Source: Flexibacter flexilis DSM 6793
Lineage (GTDB): Bacteria; Bacteroidota; Bacteroidia; Cytophagales; Flexibacteraceae
Direction of reading: 5' to 3'
Assembly: GCF_900112255.1 (NCBI RefSeq)
Contig: NZ_FOLE01000006.1
Coordinates: 124,001 to 188,000, forward strand
DNA length: 64,000 nucleotides
The translations under genes and the position numbers were made by a program. The notes under the pieces were generated by a model. It was not told the DNA's origin. It saw only the letters and a program-made list of their open reading frames with translations, and made no database searches. Below are positions 49,323-64,000 of this stretch, piece after piece; position 1 is the first letter of the stretch, and every line of letters begins with the position of its first letter.

Positions 49323-49393
49323 TTTATTGATTTGATTTTCAATGGCTTGTTGCGTTTGGCGGCAAGCCATTGTGTTTGTTTGGGACTATTTTT

Positions 49394-50719
49394 ATGAAGA
49401 AAAAAGGAGTAAATAATAGTTATTGGGGAAGTATTTTGGAAGGTCTTGGCACGTCTTGGCAAGGGCTCAAACTTTCGTTTCGACACTTGCGCGAAGCCAA
49501 AGAATCGCGCGAACCAATCGGCATAGAAAATCCTGCTTATTTTCAGCAAAAAACGGGCATTGTTACGCTACAATATCCTTTCCAACAAATTCCAGTTCCA
49601 GACAATGGCCGCTATCAGTTGCACAACGAAATGGACGATTGCATTGTTTGCGACAAATGCGTAAAAATTTGCCCCGTCAATTGCATTGAAATAGAGCCAA
49701 TTAAGGCCGTGAGCGAAATCGGAAAAACGTCTGATGGCACAACCAAACGCCTTTACGCCGCGCGTTTTGATATAGACATGGCCAAATGTTGTTTTTGTGG
49801 TTTGTGTACGGTGGTTTGCCCGACCGAATGCCTGACCATGACCCCGAATTACGATGTAAGCGTGTTCGACCTCAAACAACTTAATCTTCCGTTTGCCACA
49901 CTCACGCCCGACGAAGCCACTCAAAAGCGCGAAGAATACGACATTTTTCAGGCACAAAAAGCAGCCGCCAAAACTGCTGCTGCTCCTTCTAACACAGCAG
50001 CAAATACATCAGCCGAAACGCCTGCCGCTCCCGCAGATAAAAAACCGTTTAGGCCTGTTATTAAGAAAAAAACAGAACCAACACCCGAAGCCGTAACTCC
50101 TCCTACGGAAATCGTAAGCAATACGCCAACAGAAACAACATCTGAGCCAGCCGCGAAAAAACCATTCAAGCCAATAATTAAGCGCAAAACGGAAGAAACC
50201 GAGCCAGCCGCGAAAAAACCATTCAAGCCAATAATTAAGCGCAAAACGGAAGAAACCGAGCCAGCCAAAGCAGCAGAAAATATTTCGGAGGAAATAAAAA
50301 CGGTAGCTGAAACGCCAGCTCCTGAATCAACGCCCGAAACTGCTCCACCTGCTGCCAAAAAGCCGTTTAAGCCGATTATGCGCCGCAAAACGGAAGAAAC
50401 CGAGCCAGCCAAAGCAGCAGAAAATATTTCGGAGGAAATAAAAACGGTAGCTGAAACGCCAGCTCCTGAATCAACGCCCGAAACTGCTCCACCTGCTGCC
50501 AAAAAGCCGTTTAAGCCGATTATGCGCCGCAAAACGGAAGAAACCGAGCCAGCCAAAGCAGCAGAAAACATTTCGGAGGAAATAAAAACGGTAGCTGAAA
50601 CGCCAGCTCCTGAATCAACGCCCGAAACTGCTCCGCCAGCTGCCAAAAAACCATTTAAGCCGATTATGCGCAGACCAAGGCCAGATGATAATTCAGGTGA
50701 AAATCAAGTAAATGAATAA
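49394..50719 (+). CDS. nuoI: NADH-quinone oxidoreductase subunit I with long repetitive C-terminal tail
   Basis: A 441-residue protein. Residues 1 to about 195 are a normal NuoI with two 4Fe-4S clusters: C83-x2-C86-x2-C89-x3-C93-P and C132-x2-C135-x2-C138-x3-C142-P (CIVCDKCVKICP and CCFCGLCTVVCP). The remaining 250 residues are disordered and repetitive, with six copies of a KKPFKPI/KKPFRPV cationic motif, separated by Glu/Thr/Pro-rich spacers; three 48-residue units are nearly identical in DNA (144 nt). Usual NuoI is about 160-230 residues. No other nuo gene is near, so it is detached from the complex I operon. ATG 49394 is chosen; codons upstream are poorly protein-like. Confidence 0.9.
   Translation: MKKKGVNNSYWGSILEGLGTSWQGLKLSFRHLREAKESREPIGIENPAYFQQKTGIVTLQYPFQQIPVPDNGRYQLHNEMDDCIVCDKCVKICPVNCIEIEPIKAVSEIGKTSDGTTKRLYAARFDIDMAKCCFCGLCTVVCPTECLTMTPNYDVSVFDLKQLNLPFATLTPDEATQKREEYDIFQAQKAAAKTAAAPSNTAANTSAETPAAPADKKPFRPVIKKKTEPTPEAVTPPTEIVSNTPTETTSEPAAKKPFKPIIKRKTEETEPAAKKPFKPIIKRKTEETEPAKAAENISEEIKTVAETPAPESTPETAPPAAKKPFKPIMRRKTEETEPAKAAENISEEIKTVAETPAPESTPETAPPAAKKPFKPIMRRKTEETEPAKAAENISEEIKTVAETPAPESTPETAPPAAKKPFKPIMRRPRPDDNSGENQVNE
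50258..50689 (+). repeat. Three 144-nt direct repeats inside nuoI
   Basis: Copies start at 50258, 50402 and 50546, each encoding EPAKAAENISEEIKTV followed by AETPAPESTPETAPPAAKK and PFKPIMRR. The first two differ by almost nothing; the third diverges at its end. Near identity suggests recent duplication or gene conversion. Confidence 0.95.
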
Positions 50720-56828: not shown

Positions 56829-58010
56829 ATGAAAAATTTTATTACAAAAAAATATAGGCTTATTGCTTTTGCAATGTTATTCAGTGGTTCGGTGGCGTTG
56901 GCTGCACCAGGTGGCAAGGCGTTCAAAGATGGAAAATCGTATTACGAACAGTCTAACTACGGCAAGGCAATAGAAGCCTTCGAAAAGTCGTTGTCGGAAA
57001 ACCCAGAACATTACGCAGGCAAAAGCAATTACATGATTGCGCTTTGTTATAAGAAAATGGGCGAGTGCAACAAAGCGGCTATTTTCTTCAAAAAAGCCCT
57101 TGAAGGCGACCCCGACAAAGCAGGCGCAAGCTCTATGACCAAATTCGAGGAGCAACTTTCGGACTGCGGTTTGAGCAAAGCAACACTGGCCAACATCAGC
57201 GCAACTGCTACGGCCACCAGCACGGCGGCGGCAGGCAAAGACCCATTTTTACACGAATACGAAACTCAAATCGCCAACGGAAATAAATTGGTGGACTTAA
57301 CAGGTGCATTCACCGCCGAAGATAAGGAGTTGGTAGAAAAACAAATCTCTGTTTTGGAGAATGAATATAAATTGCAAGTGCGTGTGGCAGTTTCCAAAGA
57401 GGCCATTGGCGCACCAGAAAGTATGCTGAACAGTTTGCAGAAAGCAGGCATTGCGGCAGGCGGTAGCCATTTGGTAGTATTGGTGGCAGGCGACAAAATT
57501 TATGCAGATGGCACTTTTGATAAAAATTTGGTACGCACGGCCAAACAAAATGCAGAACCCGAAGGCCTGAAAGCGTCGGCAAGCCGTTCGGCACAAGGTT
57601 TGATGGCCGAGAAATTCTTGACACAACTCACTGAAAAAGAACATTCTGAGCAAAAAAGTAAAAATGCTACGAATTGGGGTTTGTGGATTTTTGGTTTGGC
57701 GGCCATTGGCGGCGGCGTATATTGGGTGATAAGTCGCCGCAAGAAAGTAGCCGAAGAAACCGCCCAACAGAACAGCCAAGTAATGAGCAATTTGTCTCAG
57801 ATTCAGGATGTTTTGTTTAATGATTCGATGTGGTTGGAATATTCGGCGCGTTATGACATGGAGCGCGTGCAGCAAGTCCAGACCAGTTTGCAACTCGAAT
57901 ACAGCAATTTAGTAAACAGCCTTGACCCTGTGGGCGTGAATGATTTGGAAAAACGCGTTCGCCAGCTTCAAAACAACCCAGATGGCGTTTTCAAGGCATT
58001 AGGTCAATAA
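56829..58010 (+). CDS. TPR plus TPM-like domain membrane protein
   Basis: A 393-residue exported protein. The signal peptide ends VALAAPGG. Residues about 28-110 hold two or three TPRs (YYEQSNYGKAIEAFEKSLSENPEHYAGKSNYMIALCYKKMGECNKAAIFFKKALEGDPD). Residues about 155-270 resemble a TPM (TPM_phosphatase) domain: LVDLTGAFTAEDKELVEKQISVLENEYKLQVRVAVSKE. A transmembrane helix at about 283-300 (WGLWIFGLAAIGGGVYWVI) is followed by a cytoplasmic coiled-coil tail. TPM domains are linked to membrane quality control; the TPR fusion is less usual. Function is not assigned. Confidence 0.78.
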   Translation: MKNFITKKYRLIAFAMLFSGSVALAAPGGKAFKDGKSYYEQSNYGKAIEAFEKSLSENPEHYAGKSNYMIALCYKKMGECNKAAIFFKKALEGDPDKAGASSMTKFEEQLSDCGLSKATLANISATATATSTAAAGKDPFLHEYETQIANGNKLVDLTGAFTAEDKELVEKQISVLENEYKLQVRVAVSKEAIGAPESMLNSLQKAGIAAGGSHLVVLVAGDKIYADGTFDKNLVRTAKQNAEPEGLKASASRSAQGLMAEKFLTQLTEKEHSEQKSKNATNWGLWIFGLAAIGGGVYWVISRRKKVAEETAQQNSQVMSNLSQIQDVLFNDSMWLEYSARYDMERVQQVQTSLQLEYSNLVNSLDPVGVNDLEKRVRQLQNNPDGVFKALGQ

Positions 58011-58056: not shown

Positions 58057-61000
58057 ATGACTCGTATCCTCTACTTTCGTTTGTTAGTTGGTTTGCTTGC
58101 AATGCTTCCATTTTTGGGTAAGGCGCAACAATGCTCAACGGCTTCTTTTAGCATTGATGCTGACACTGTCTGCGTCAATCAACCCATTCCCATCACCAAT
58201 ACGTCGGTAGGGGCTTCGAGTTATGAGTGGGATTTTTGTGGTAATGGAGGAGCATTAAGTAACCCGACAGGAATAGCGCAGTTCTCATTGTCTCCTGATA
58301 ATACTTATGGGCATGATTTGGTTTTTGATGGTACGATATGGCACTCATTTATAGCTAATTATGACCGTAACAGTATCACAAGGTTAGATTATGTGAATGG
58401 CTTAGAGCAGCCGCCGATTTCCACTTCTTTTGGTTTGGGACTGAGTAGTTGCTATTCTATCGCAGTCATAAAAGAAGATAATGGCAATTGGTACGGAATT
58501 GTGTCGGCGTATGACGGAGGAGGAAATGCCTTTGTTCGTTTGAACTTCGGGACATCGCTTACTAATACGCCTGTTGCATCGCCAGCAGAGTCGTTACCAG
58601 GTTTAGCAGGTGTTCGTGGGCTACAAATAGTGAAAGAAAATGGCTCTTATTATTTACTAACAGCAGGTGGAGGTTCTCAAAATCTTATTGTGGTTAATTT
58701 AGGTAATAGCTTGGCTAATGGCATTACGGGGGCAAGCGTTGTTGTTTCTTCGTTGTCAGGTGCTGCATTTTCTCGCTTTAAGGTACTTCAAAATTGTAAT
58801 AAGTGGGTGGGAATTGCCAGTACGCTAGGCGGGCAACTGTACCAAATTAATTTTGGTAGTTCTATCTTTTCTCAGGCAACATTCCAAGAAATAAATAAAG
58901 GGTCTATTGCGGGTAATGTGTTGATTGATGTTACACTTTTCAAGCGTTTTAACAAGTTTTATGCCATAGTTAGCTCGTTGGGGCAGGGGATGTATTTACT
59001 TTCTTTTAATGATGTTTTTAGTCTTAATCCTACGGTTTCACCTCTTCCTGTCTTGGGTTCAGCAAATACTCTTTTAGGGTTTGGTATTGCAGAAAGTCAG
59101 GGTTATACATATTTTGTTAGTGCTTCTTCCGATGCTAAACTATATCGTTTGCGCATGGGAACTTTGTGTACAAGTGCTACGGTTTCTAATCCAACGACAG
59201 CTCTGCCGTCCGTTGTCTATAATGCGCCAGGAAAATATTATTTTTCTCTTTTCACTAATGGAAATAGCACCGCACGAGATTCTGTTGTGGTAACCTCTTC
59301 TAATATTAAATATAATATAGAAGGCTCGTGTAACAATCCTACCTTTGTGTTTACAAGTAATTCGTGTGTTGGTGCTACGCCAGCCTCCTATCTTTGGAAT
59401 TTTGGTGATGGCAATACTGCTACAACCGCCAACGCAACACATACTTATACAACACCTGATCAGTATAATGTAACTTTTACGGTTACCGATGGCAATGGGG
59501 TGGCTTATTCACGTCAGCGAAAAATAGTCTATCAGGCTGCCGCACCTGTCGCAGATTTTACGTATATAAATCCTGTATGTTCGGGTGGCGAGAATTTTTT
59601 TACGGATAATTCTATATCTCCCATCGATACAGTAGTAACATGGCAATGGGATTTGGGTAATGGTACTACGGCTAATACTAAAAATGCAGCAGCAATTTAT
59701 ACTACTCCTGGTACTTACGATGTAAAACTTAAGATTGTTACGGGAAATGGTTGTATCAGTGAGGTTACTAAATCGGTCAATGTGGTGCTTGGGCCAGAAG
59801 TGAATTTTGGTTACCAAAGTCTTTGTTTTGGAGATACCGTGGCATTTACGGATAGCTCTTTTTTCCCTGCAGGGACAGCTTACTTGGAAGGAAGCAGGCT
59901 TTGGAGTTTTGGAGATAACACAACGGATACGACGCAAAATCCTAAGCATAAATTTACAGAGATAAAAACATATACGGTCTCCCTTAGAGTTTCCTCTACT
60001 GATGGATGTATTTCAAGTTTTACGCGAAATGTTACGATACTTCCCTTACCAACGGCCAATTTTAGTGCGCCAACACTTATTTTTCCGAATATGTCGGTGC
60101 CGTTTACGGATATAAGTACGGTAGCAGCTGGACAAACTATTGTTGATTGGACTTGGGATTTTGGCGACCCTTCTAGTGGAGCTAATAATACTTCTGCTTT
60201 TTCTAATCCTGTGCATATATTTAGCGTAGCAGATATTTTTAATGTTAGCCTTACGATTACAACAAACAAAGGTTGTAAGCATACGGTTACGAAGCAGATA
60301 GATATTTTAAAAAATTGCCCCGAAACCAATTTTAGTTTAAGTACACATACTGCCAACACATTAGCTAATATCGGAGCGACGAATGGAAGTTCGGCGGGGG
60401 CTAGCAAATTTCAGTGGGATTTATGTGCTGGTGATTTAAGCAAAATGCCATTGTTGGAACAGTCCTTTACGTCAAGTTATTTTGTTCGCAACGTCAGTGT
60501 AGTGGCAGATAAAAATAAGTGTTATTTGTTTGCCCCATTTTTTACCACGGCTACGATTAATAATCCGTGGCAACGTTTTGATTTTGGTAATTCGTTTGCC
60601 AATACTGCTACTCCTGTGCTTTTGGGTAATCCAGCAAGTGGCACTACGCCCAATGCTTTAAGTGCTCCTGTTTGTGTAAGAGTTTTTCGTAAGGATACCG
60701 CACTTTATGGTTTGGCCATTAATTCGTCCACAGGAAATTTAGTACGACTGTTTTTTGCTGATTCAGTGAACAGTGATATTGTTACAGCTAGTCCTTTAGC
60801 TGTAACTGGTATTACCAAACCTGAGAACATCGAAATTGTACAAGATGGAGATTCTTTGTATGCGTTTATTACTTGTAACAATGTAGGCCAAATCAATAAT
60901 TTATTGGTTCGTTTGAGTTTTGGTACCTCGTTTCTGAATACGCCAACCGTTACATTTTTAGATAATCCCGTGTTGCAAGCCAATAACTCAGGGGCATTGT

Positions 61001-64000
61001 ATGGTATGTCTGTTATTCGAGATTGTAATACTTGGTATATGGTAGTGGTGAGTAATAGTGGTAAAATTATTCGCCTTAATTTTGGGATGTCGCTCAATCG
61101 AAATCCTTCTTATCAAAATGTTACGACACAATGGACGGCTGGCCTCACAGAAATAACCGCCACTAATCAGTTCGTAAAACTTTCTTTGCACAGAGAAATG
61201 GGTAAAATCTATGCAATCGGAGTTACAAGGATAGGTACTATGGCTTATTTTAAGTTTAACTCATTGATGGAGAGTCCTTTGAGTAGGCAAGTTTGGAGTG
61301 GTAATATATTTTCTATTGCTGATGTAGATATTCGCGATGCTCAATTTATTAAGGTGGGTTCTCAATGGCATGGTTTTGCTGCTCTGAATAACAATAGTTT
61401 GGGTGTGCTTAAATGGTCTTTTCCTAATCCGTGTAGCACTCCGCAACCTATCCGCCATGATGCAGTGATCAACAACTTTGCCTACACACAGGCAGGAACT
61501 TATTATATTTCTTTGGAGTCGTCCGATTCGCGGGATTGGATAAGTTCTTTTGCCGATTCGGTGGTAGTATCTTCTACTACTGCAGGGGCTGATATTGTAT
61601 ATGCTTGTCCGTCTGTGTCTATGAATACGCCTGCTAATGCTTGCGCCAATCAAGACCTTCTGCTTACAGCCAATACAGATACAACCAATCAGATAGCTTG
61701 GGATATGTGTGCGGGAGATTTGAGTGATAATATTTCGTTTGAGTCATCTTCAATATTACCCAATATGGTAAGAGCTCGGGGAATAAGCATTGTAAAAGAC
61801 GGTTCAGAATATTTTGGGCTGGTGGCTTCTACCAGTGAAGGAATGCCTATCATCTTCACTCGTTTTGGTACAAACTTTGACAATGGAGCAAGTTCGTTTA
61901 TTTACCCGACCCAAGGTGCAGTTCTGAATTGCTTTGATGCTAAATTGGTGAAAGAGAATGGAAAGTGGATAGGTTTTTTGTCTAATGCCCCTGTTATAAA
62001 TGCCTCAATTGCAAGCCAACTGGTTCGCCTTAATTGGAATGGAGAATCATTATCTAGCAACACGCCTCAGTTTTCGATGATTTCGGGTAGAGGCCAACTC
62101 AATATGCCTGATGGGATAGAGCTTGCAGAAGAAAATGGCCAGAAATATTTATTGGTGGTGAATAATAGTGCCTCTCGTACCATAGCGGTTTATAATTTTG
62201 GCAATTCGTATCTTAATAGTCCTTCAGTTTCTTCTTTTGTTGTAGATTCTGCGGTGTCTATTCAGCGTATTTCTATGATAAAAGACTGTAATCGCTGGTA
62301 TGCATTGGTATCTGACCAGCAAGGAGGGGCGGTCGTAAGATTAGATTTCAGTAAAGGATTGCATCAAAAACCATCTTTTAAACGTATCTCAATTGGCACG
62401 AATAAGTTTCCTACTGGCCTTAAGTTATGGCGTGATAATGGCAAATATTATGCTGTTGTGGTTTCTTTTTCCAATGATATAAATAATCACTTTAAGATTA
62501 GCTTCGGTGATAAGATGGCAAATAATGCGATTTCTGTTACGGACATGGGAAATAATGGTGGATTGGCAAATAATATGGTTGGTTTTGATATGCTGACAAC
62601 CAATAGCTCAGAAACCAAACTTATTGGTGTTTCAGCTGCTGTGCCTATCTTTGTGTATAAGTTTAAGTTTCCTAATCCTTGTAACGTTGCCAGTCCAATT
62701 GTTGCAGGAGGGGATTCTGCTAATGTAATTTACACCCAAAATGGCAACTATAATATTGCCGTAACCGTTACGGATACCAATGGCAATAGTTATAGTATGT
62801 CTCAGCCCATACAAGTAAAAAACCCCGTTACGGCTGATTTTATACAATCGGGAGGGTTTTGTAATGGTCAGACAGTTGTGTTTACTCACACGTCTGTTGT
62901 AGATCCTAATACACAAGGACTTACCTACTCTTGGAACTTTGATGACCCAAGTTCTAGTGCTAATACCGCCACAACTCAGGATGCCAGCCACATATTTGCC
63001 CAAGCTGGCACTTATAACGTAACTTATAATGTTGGCTCTGGTTCAGGCTGTAATAGTCTCAAACAAAAAACTATTAAGATTTATAATCCTCCGCAAGCCA
63101 ATTTTTCATTCCAAAACTCAAGTATTGGGCTTTGTGCCAATGATTCCATTGCTTTTACCGATGCAAGTACCACCGATGTTGGCGACCAAATCAATGTTTA
63201 TCAATGGGTCATAAAAGATGCAAGCCAAGCGATCTTGTTCACGTCCTCCCGAAAGAATCCCAAATTCTTATTTACGGAAGTGGGTAGTTATACGGCAACC
63301 CTAACGGTTTGGGCAAATGGAGGCTGTGAAAATGTTGTAACCAAAACAGTAGATGTTACGAACTTGGGAGCCGCTGTTAGTATTGGGGTGAGTAATGATT
63401 TTTGCGAAGGATCGTCCGTGCATTTTACCACCAATAGCAATAGTGCTAACATTATAGATGTATTGTGGCATTTAGGCGATAACCAAACTTCTACCGAACT
63501 GAACCCTACTATAACTTATAGCAGTGCTGGGCAGCGTCAAATCACATTACAGGTAACCAATTCTGTTGGTTGTGTTAGTACTGTATCACAATCTATTACT
63601 ATTTATTCACGCCCAGAAGCAGTTATCAACACCAACACAGCCGCTTGCCGTAATAGCCCACTGATTTTAAGCGCGACATCATCTATTTCGGAAGGTCTGA
63701 TTACTAACTACGATTGGAGCTTTGGAGACGGCACGCCGACTCAAAATGCAGCAACCGTTTCGCATACTTATACTAATGTGGGGCTTTATAATGTAAAACT
63801 TATCATCACGACACAATATGGCTGTAAAGATACCGCTGATATTGTCATTTCGGTTGCACCATCGCCAACGGCTGCATTTTCGGCTCAGAGCATTTGTATG
63901 GGCAAACCAGTTACTTTTACCAATCAAAGTAGCAGTATTGGCGGTAGCCTCACGTATTTATGGCAGTTCCGCAATGCAACCAATACCGCCGATTTGGGAA
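58057..64000 (+). CDS. Giant PKD-domain surface protein with propeller-like inserts, 3' partial
   Basis: The frame from ATG 58057 stays open to the right edge (more than 1980 codons), so the end lies outside the window. A signal peptide (MTRILYFRLLVGLLAMLPFLGKAQ) is followed by PKD domains, for example FGDGNTATTANATHTYTT near 59400, WDLGNGTTANTKNAAAIYTTPG near 59646, WDFGDPSSGANNTSAF near 60150, WNFDDPSSSANTATT near 62930 and FGDGTPTQNAATVSHTY near 63721. Three stretches (58228-59187, 60415-61430, 61699-62690) start WD-x-C-x-G and end near a Pro-rich FPNPC or SNPTT, with repeated IVK(D/E)-x-G-x-WYG/LV and LNFGTSL-x-N-x-P blades. A T9SS signal is expected beyond the edge. Confidence 0.88.
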   Translation, partial: MTRILYFRLLVGLLAMLPFLGKAQQCSTASFSIDADTVCVNQPIPITNTSVGASSYEWDFCGNGGALSNPTGIAQFSLSPDNTYGHDLVFDGTIWHSFIANYDRNSITRLDYVNGLEQPPISTSFGLGLSSCYSIAVIKEDNGNWYGIVSAYDGGGNAFVRLNFGTSLTNTPVASPAESLPGLAGVRGLQIVKENGSYYLLTAGGGSQNLIVVNLGNSLANGITGASVVVSSLSGAAFSRFKVLQNCNKWVGIASTLGGQLYQINFGSSIFSQATFQEINKGSIAGNVLIDVTLFKRFNKFYAIVSSLGQGMYLLSFNDVFSLNPTVSPLPVLGSANTLLGFGIAESQGYTYFVSASSDAKLYRLRMGTLCTSATVSNPTTALPSVVYNAPGKYYFSLFTNGNSTARDSVVVTSSNIKYNIEGSCNNPTFVFTSNSCVGATPASYLWNFGDGNTATTANATHTYTTPDQYNVTFTVTDGNGVAYSRQRKIVYQAAAPVADFTYINPVCSGGENFFTDNSISPIDTVVTWQWDLGNGTTANTKNAAAIYTTPGTYDVKLKIVTGNGCISEVTKSVNVVLGPEVNFGYQSLCFGDTVAFTDSSFFPAGTAYLEGSRLWSFGDNTTDTTQNPKHKFTEIKTYTVSLRVSSTDGCISSFTRNVTILPLPTANFSAPTLIFPNMSVPFTDISTVAAGQTIVDWTWDFGDPSSGANNTSAFSNPVHIFSVADIFNVSLTITTNKGCKHTVTKQIDILKNCPETNFSLSTHTANTLANIGATNGSSAGASKFQWDLCAGDLSKMPLLEQSFTSSYFVRNVSVVADKNKCYLFAPFFTTATINNPWQRFDFGNSFANTATPVLLGNPASGTTPNALSAPVCVRVFRKDTALYGLAINSSTGNLVRLFFADSVNSDIVTASPLAVTGITKPENIEIVQDGDSLYAFITCNNVGQINNLLVRLSFGTSFLNTPTVTFLDNPVLQANNSGALYGMSVIRDCNTWYMVVVSNSGKIIRLNFGMSLNRNPSYQNVTTQWTAGLTEITATNQFVKLSLHREMGKIYAIGVTRIGTMAYFKFNSLMESPLSRQVWSGNIFSIADVDIRDAQFIKVGSQWHGFAALNNNSLGVLKWSFPNPCSTPQPIRHDAVINNFAYTQAGTYYISLESSDSRDWISSFADSVVVSSTTAGADIVYACPSVSMNTPANACANQDLLLTANTDTTNQIAWDMCAGDLSDNISFESSSILPNMVRARGISIVKDGSEYFGLVASTSEGMPIIFTRFGTNFDNGASSFIYPTQGAVLNCFDAKLVKENGKWIGFLSNAPVINASIASQLVRLNWNGESLSSNTPQFSMISGRGQLNMPDGIELAEENGQKYLLVVNNSASRTIAVYNFGNSYLNSPSVSSFVVDSAVSIQRISMIKDCNRWYALVSDQQGGAVVRLDFSKGLHQKPSFKRISIGTNKFPTGLKLWRDNGKYYAVVVSFSNDINNHFKISFGDKMANNAISVTDMGNNGGLANNMVGFDMLTTNSSETKLIGVSAAVPIFVYKFKFPNPCNVASPIVAGGDSANVIYTQNGNYNIAVTVTDTNGNSYSMSQPIQVKNPVTADFIQSGGFCNGQTVVFTHTSVVDPNTQGLTYSWNFDDPSSSANTATTQDASHIFAQAGTYNVTYNVGSGSGCNSLKQKTIKIYNPPQANFSFQNSSIGLCANDSIAFTDASTTDVGDQINVYQWVIKDASQAILFTSSRKNPKFLFTEVGSYTATLTVWANGGCENVVTKTVDVTNLGAAVSIGVSNDFCEGSSVHFTTNSNSANIIDVLWHLGDNQTSTELNPTITYSSAGQRQITLQVTNSVGCVSTVSQSITIYSRPEAVINTNTAACRNSPLILSATSSISEGLITNYDWSFGDGTPTQNAATVSHTYTNVGLYNVKLIITTQYGCKDTADIVISVAPSPTAAFSAQSICMGKPVTFTNQSSSIGGSLTYLWQFRNATNTADLG
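58228..59187 (+). other. Insert 1: propeller-like stretch inside a PKD-like domain
   Basis: WDFCGNGG opens the module at 58228. Blade-like repeats follow, e.g. IAVIKEDNGNWYGIVSAY then VRLNFGTSLTNTP, and LQIVKENGSYYLLT then LIVVNLGNSLANG. It closes at SNPTTALPSVVYNAPGKYYFSL, which resembles the second half of a PKD domain (np..htY...G.Y.v.L). Confidence 0.65.
60415..61434 (+). other. Insert 2: propeller-like stretch inside a PKD-like domain
   Basis: Opens with FQWDLCAGDLSKMP, repeats (VSVVADKNKCYLFAPFF, RFDFGNSFANTATP, IEIVQDGDSLYAFIT, VRLSFGTSFLNTPT, MSVIRDCNTWYMVVV) and closes WSFPNPCSTPQPIRHDAV then FAYTQAGTYYISLE. Confidence 0.65.
61699..62690 (+). other. Insert 3: propeller-like stretch inside a PKD-like domain
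   Basis: Opens WDMCAGDLSDNISF, repeats (ISIVKDGSEYFGLVA, FTRFGTNFDNG, IELAEENGQKYLLVV, VYNFGNSYLNSPS, ISMIKDCNRWYALVS) and closes FKFPNPCNVASPIVAGG then IYTQNGNYNIAVTVTD. Confidence 0.65.

Follow-up and report, generated by a model that had tools for sequence, protein, structure and literature searches.

The window, a 64,000-nt stretch of the Flexibacter flexilis genome, contains near its end a single open reading frame that starts at position 58057 (+), runs beyond the window and encodes a giant secreted-type protein; the contig gives a full gene of 2383 aa. The protein consists of a signal peptide-like start (residues 1-23, 58057..58125 (+); a hydrophobic N-terminus ending KAQ/Q, read from the sequence), three modules of unusual composition, approximately 11 ordinary PKD domains that separate and follow these modules, and a T9SS type A tail lying beyond the window (residues 2305-2380; PF18962 37.3 bits, TIGR04183 32.6 bits, both above cut-off). 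The Por_Secre_tail domain, together with a T9SS in the genome, places the protein among type A cargo, and the presence of SprA (2518 bits) and approximately 113 such tails in the same genome makes its delivery by the T9SS plausible.

A TPR protein with a second, TPM-like region is encoded directly upstream on the same strand (56829-58010); this gene is not conserved beside relatives of the giant gene, and apart from the gene itself no conserved neighbours of the window gene were found. Elsewhere in the window, positions 49370-50719 encode a NuoI-like ferredoxin-type protein with two 4Fe-4S motifs and a long Pro/Ala/Lys tail with approximately three nearly identical ~44-residue repeats. Contig C4 of the genome (L010, 141-9695) carries a gene for a 2814-aa PKD-rich protein that has no propeller insert; a PorP/SprF-like gene comes next, as is usual for type B T9SS cargo.

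Each of the three modules opens with a WDxC motif (WDFC with C61, WDLC with C790 and WDMC with C1218 in modules 1, 2 and 3, respectively), continues through an insert of approximately 310-335 residues and closes at a second cysteine (C371, C1126 and C1542); behind it lies the PKD half that carries Y-x-x-x-G-x-Y. Module 1 (residues 26-415, 58132..59301 (+)), delimited by an AlphaFold2 model and VIA-align, comprises an N-terminal PKD half that reaches WDFC and is recognized by its PKD profile score when joined (residues 27-62, 58135..58242 (+)), a nested six-bladed propeller defined by six strand groups and superposition on Pizza6 (residues 63-370, 58243..59166 (+)), and a C-terminal PKD half that begins with C371 and is supported by sequence, PKD score and model (residues 371-414, 59167..59298 (+)). 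Four ordinary, uninterrupted PKD domains follow (residues ~417-750, 59305..60306 (+); PF18911 matches), the first of which is included in the module 1 model. Module 2 (residues 754-1176, 60316..61584 (+)) was assigned from a full-length profile match and alignment; C790 and C1126 flank its insert, and C754 and C990 form its second cysteine pair. Module 3 (residues 1184-1590, 61606..62826 (+); AlphaFold2) is divided into an N-terminal PKD half from C1184 to C1218 (61606..61710 (+); model strands E10-13, E17-19, E23-30 and E35-39), a nested propeller of six blades with four strands each (residues 1219-1541, 61711..62679 (+); model and Pizza6 Z score) and a C-terminal PKD half from C1542 to residue 1590 (62680..62826 (+); model strands E371-373, E377-381, E386-395 and E401-411, and Pfam). 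Ordinary PKD domains, identified by Pfam and profile matches, occupy the rest of the window (62833..64000 (+)) and continue past its end to residue ~2190.

The original prediction had described three modules running from WDxC to NPC. This arrangement is present in all three, except that module 1 does not have the FPNPC segment of modules 2 and 3: its partner cysteine, C371, lies within LRMGTLC, immediately before SNPTT. The WDxC, insert and PKD-half arrangement is also seen in many other genomes, with 65 non-redundant modules collected. Given that the three modules of the window protein share only 23-28% identity, this recurrence places the arrangement far beyond chance.

In Pfam searches of the intact modules, matches in modules 2 and 3 were confined to the C-terminal PKD half (profile positions 33 or 43 onward) and stayed below cut-off; in module 3, PKD and PKD_4 cover profile positions 43-82 only, and module 1 gave only a sub-cut-off PKD trace. 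The insert lacks a model in both Pfam and NCBIfam, and Pfam returned nothing convincing for it. When the insert was excised and the halves were joined, the PKD score rose in all three modules, reaching 28.9 bits against a PF00801 cut-off of 23.5 bits in module 3 and falling just below the cut-off in modules 1 and 2. Using a PKD profile made from ordinary PKD domains only, with the modules masked out, the joined halves of module 1 score 33.9 bits compared with 10.6 for the C half alone. Over 46 modules, the mean PKD score is 25.1 bits for the joined halves; it drops to 10.8 when the C half is scored by itself and to 9.7 after shuffling of the N half, and the true N half outscores all 10 shuffles in 38 modules. 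A 404-position module profile matches ordinary PKD domains in two pieces, at positions ~5-40 and ~360-402, that lie only 2-7 residues apart (10 pairs), indicating that the intervening 320 positions are an insertion into one PKD domain. Partial matches to the first 40-72 positions of the profile raised the possibility of PKD domains split by other inserts, and all eight loci checked proved to be ordinary, uninterrupted PKD domains.

The structure models agree with this partition. The AlphaFold2 model of module 3 (mean pLDDT 91.6, pTM 0.90; 46 aligned modules) has four short strands before the insert, four after it and 24 strands between (model residues 50-360), arranged in six groups of four. 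The model of module 1 together with the next ordinary PKD domain (residues 24-501; mean pLDDT 83.8) displays the same pattern, and comparison with the strands of that ordinary PKD domain locates the insertion point after strand C, at the WDFGDG position. As in the ordinary domain modelled alongside, both modelled modules have an Ig-like strand order with the WD motif on strand C and the Y-x-x-x-G-x-Y segment. Superimposition on Pizza6 with VIA-align involves the insert only, with Z scores of 27.6 for module 3 (model residues 49-361) and 28.2 for module 1 (model residues 46-344); 251 and 247 of the 251 Pizza6 residues are aligned, respectively, corresponding to ~250 residues at 2.2-2.4 Å. Further six-bladed structural neighbours of the insert are NHL domains and PknD (Z 27-28), and in the models of both modules six four-stranded blades close into a ring, as in the NHL-like propeller fold. 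The relationship is scarcely visible in sequence: the Pfam NHL profile does not match the insert at E values up to 1, and the 46-module profile matches solved structures only at the PKD half, apart from weak matches to Pizza proteins. The nesting proposed in the original prediction thus finds support in the models, which show about half a PKD domain on each side of a six-bladed propeller and not complete PKD domains. Judged from models and sequence together, each module is very probably a single PKD domain split by a nested six-bladed NHL-like propeller.

Cysteines were counted in the 65 modules, no two of which are 90% or more identical. Of these modules, 62 have both the WDxC and the NPC cysteine, two have neither and one has only one of them; this co-conservation, with its two co-losses, supports the disulfide bond proposed between them. 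The single mismatched module (L074 module 2) reads IDFFFFF where its relatives read IDFCxGD and retains the partner cysteine; the run of phenylalanines may be a homopolymer error, or the WDxC cysteine may really have been lost. A second pair, formed by the first cysteine of the module and a blade-4 cysteine (DCNxWY), is complete in 48 modules, absent in 17 and mixed in none (Fisher p 5e-16, a statistic that ignores relatedness). On the best topology of a tree built without the columns of this pair, six changes are counted for each cysteine, every one of them coinciding with a change in the other; few of the branches concerned are well supported. In module 3, the blade-4 cysteine is C1411 (KDCNRWY, 62287..62289 (+)), the predicted partner of C1184 on the basis of cysteine co-occurrence in the 65 modules. 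Sequence covariation thus makes it likely that the module contains two disulfides, WDxC-NPC and first PKD cysteine-blade 4. Another PKD cysteine, C17 (profile column 17), is conserved in 58 of the 65 modules, among which it neither co-varies with the blade-4 or the first cysteine nor has a conserved partner; its likely partner in ordinary PKD domains is in the F-G loop, which contains no cysteine in these modules. In an Ig-like domain, strand C ends at the pole opposite the N-terminus, and in the propeller blade 4 faces blades 1 and 6 across the ring. With this geometry, the pair of bonds would fasten the disc lengthwise to the PKD domain. This suggests a disc stapled along its PKD domain rather than hung by its base alone, altering the picture drawn in the original prediction.

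The nested module is widespread. A three-module query finds matches in nine of the 11 genomes of the window's family and in 50 of 194 genomes of the order, with the insert covered in about 46 of the latter, a lower bound. At the level of the class, a 46-module query covers the insert in about 33 of 395 genomes, again a lower bound, and its other matches involve only the PKD halves aligned to ordinary PKD domains. The window's family has the form with three modules and ~2400 residues, and relatives outside it are mostly proteins of 900-1400 residues with one N-terminal module. Two-module proteins, intermediate between these forms, are found at L092 (genome G100) and L032 (Ekhidna lutea). The modules are highly divergent, with 20-31% identity.

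The neighbours of the single-module relatives encode GDP-L-fucose synthase, other sugar-nucleotide dehydratases and epimerases, glycosyltransferases and a Wzm/Wzt-type polysaccharide exporter. One gene order recurs, with epimerase, fucose synthase, the nested gene, Wzm and Wzt in succession on one strand and nearly gapless. We scored glycan genes within 5 kb at 16 loci of the order that had supplied the search seeds (set A), at 22 loci from other families and orders (set B) and, as controls, at 37 loci of further large T9SS cargo genes from the order of set A. The gene families scored were picked after inspecting set A, in which 14 of 16 loci have such a gene; so do 14 of 22 loci in set B and two of 37 controls (Fisher p 5e-9 for set A and 2e-6 for set B against the controls, ignoring the relatedness of loci that are related by descent). 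At some loci within the order (L033, L034, L031, L082 and L088), the genes downstream of the nested one encode an AsnC/Lrp regulator, a phosphoribosyltransferase and a ketopantoate hydroxymethyltransferase. In the window's family, glycan genes adjoin the nested gene at only one of seven loci, and in the F. flexilis genome Wzm-Wzt is on a contig other than that of the nested gene, which makes glycan binding an extrapolation for the window gene. A 782-aa T9SS protein encoded beside the fucose synthase of this genome was considered as a relative and rejected, since it appears from its sequence to be a zinc metalloprotease that has one ordinary PKD domain and no propeller.

We consider evenly balanced the case for a reading of the whole protein as stapled glycan-binding propeller heads on a T9SS-secreted PKD rod. 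The T9SS would export a rod of PKD domains carrying three propeller heads; the rod would be anchored to the surface by its C-terminal end, with the heads at or near the N-terminal tip. The WDxC-NPC bond would shut the base of the insert, and the bond between the first PKD cysteine and blade 4 would hold the disc rigidly along the PKD domain. Each head would probably bind surface polysaccharide, as suggested by the encoding of single-module relatives between sugar-nucleotide genes and a Wzm-Wzt exporter. This glycan-binding role, which is based on genomic context, is advanced tentatively, and the three-module window protein may have kept it. PorZ, a T9SS beta-propeller protein of Porphyromonas gingivalis, has as its ligand the anionic polysaccharide of A-LPS, which it presents to PorU (PMC8545088), and type A cargo is joined to LPS in Porphyromonas (PMC8545088 and PMC9143113). 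Together with the operon, the PorZ precedent points to the cell's own exported LPS or O-antigen-type glycan as the likeliest ligand. PorZ and the window protein are alike as T9SS surface proteins with beta-propellers; PorZ differs in having two propellers without PKD nesting and in being a core T9SS component, and the analysis showed no sequence relation between it and the nested module.

The main rival of the glycan-binding reading, which we regard as rather unlikely, is that the nested heads recognise foreign ligands, as adhesins for host, prey, particles or other cells, and owe their place in the operon to a shared variable 'surface' island. An adhesin role is common among giant PKD proteins with T9SS tails, the divergence of the modules is as expected of variable ligand binding, and the linkage to glycan genes is absent from most loci of the window's family. 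However, a codirectional, nearly overlapping place just before Wzm-Wzt in many genomes is more specific than a loose island. The same operon, together with the behaviour of PorZ (PMC8545088), could instead be taken to indicate a PorZ-like attachment or assembly factor, whose propeller captures newly exported LPS or polysaccharide and hands it to the T9SS sortase or holds it at the surface. This is improbable: the nested module is found in a minority of genomes (the lower bounds of about 46 of 194 in the order and 33 of 395 in the class), so the nested protein cannot be a core T9SS part, and its six-bladed, nested fold is unlike that of PorZ.

The remaining alternatives concern the propeller itself. 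Some of its structural neighbours are enzymes (SMP30-type lactonases and paraoxonase), and a lactonase, glycosidase or lyase-like activity on surface polysaccharide might be envisaged, but we judge this very improbable. The insert has no conserved catalytic or metal-binding set across the 65 modules: only three columns are acidic in at least 70% of modules, none is His-rich, the conserved W, F, G, P and N residues are typical of blades, and the conserved metal-binding acidic residues of SMP30 and lactonases were not found. Slightly less probable still is a ligand-free role for the propellers as rigid spacers that stiffen the rod; two predicted disulfide staples and high model confidence do suggest rigidity, but the propeller of single-module relatives is found at the extreme N-terminus, where a head and not a spacer would be expected. 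That the propeller is a separate domain between two complete or degenerate PKD domains is hardly credible, even though the PKD halves are short and score weakly when alone, in view of the models, the adjacency of the two half-domains on ordinary PKD domains and the co-conserved flanking cysteines.

Several known systems share elements with the nested module. Its two halves match PKD profiles and share with the PKD and PKD_4 domains (PF00801 and PF18911) the WD motif, the Y-x-x-x-G-x-Y half and the strand order; the modules differ in reading WDxC in place of WDFGDG and in being split after strand C by ~310-335 residues. NHL-type propellers, including the extracellular sensor of PknD, the NHL domains of TRIM2 and Brat and the designed Pizza6, have six blades of four strands like the insert, whereas the insert shares only ~11-16% identity with them, lacks a Pfam match and is nested in a PKD domain to which it would be tied by predicted disulfides. 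In a Methanosarcina surface-layer protein, tandem seven-bladed propeller, PKD and beta-helix domains also bring propeller and PKD together at the cell surface, in succession and not nested. SprB-type giant PKD adhesins are very long, repeat-rich and delivered by the T9SS with type B tails, and to our knowledge no propeller insert has been described in them; the window protein is likewise a long, repeat-rich T9SS surface protein, with a type A tail and propeller inserts. A literature search covering mostly papers outside subscription found no description of a PKD domain split by a propeller. PKD domains, NHL-like propellers and domain insertion are each known; their nested combination, doubly stapled as predicted from sequence, has no Pfam or NCBIfam model.

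PKD domains are usually read as inert spacers. Here, the PKD domain is a frame for a nested propeller that has been missed by Pfam and NCBIfam and that recurs across many Bacteroidota families. As a more doubtful extension of the glycan-binding reading, the nested module may be a dedicated outer-surface partner of Wzm-Wzt export, which would capture, organise or display the glycan of its own operon and link protein secretion to LPS export. Its repeated place between sugar-nucleotide genes and Wzm-Wzt offers a testable link between the T9SS and the export of the LPS to which cargo attaches.
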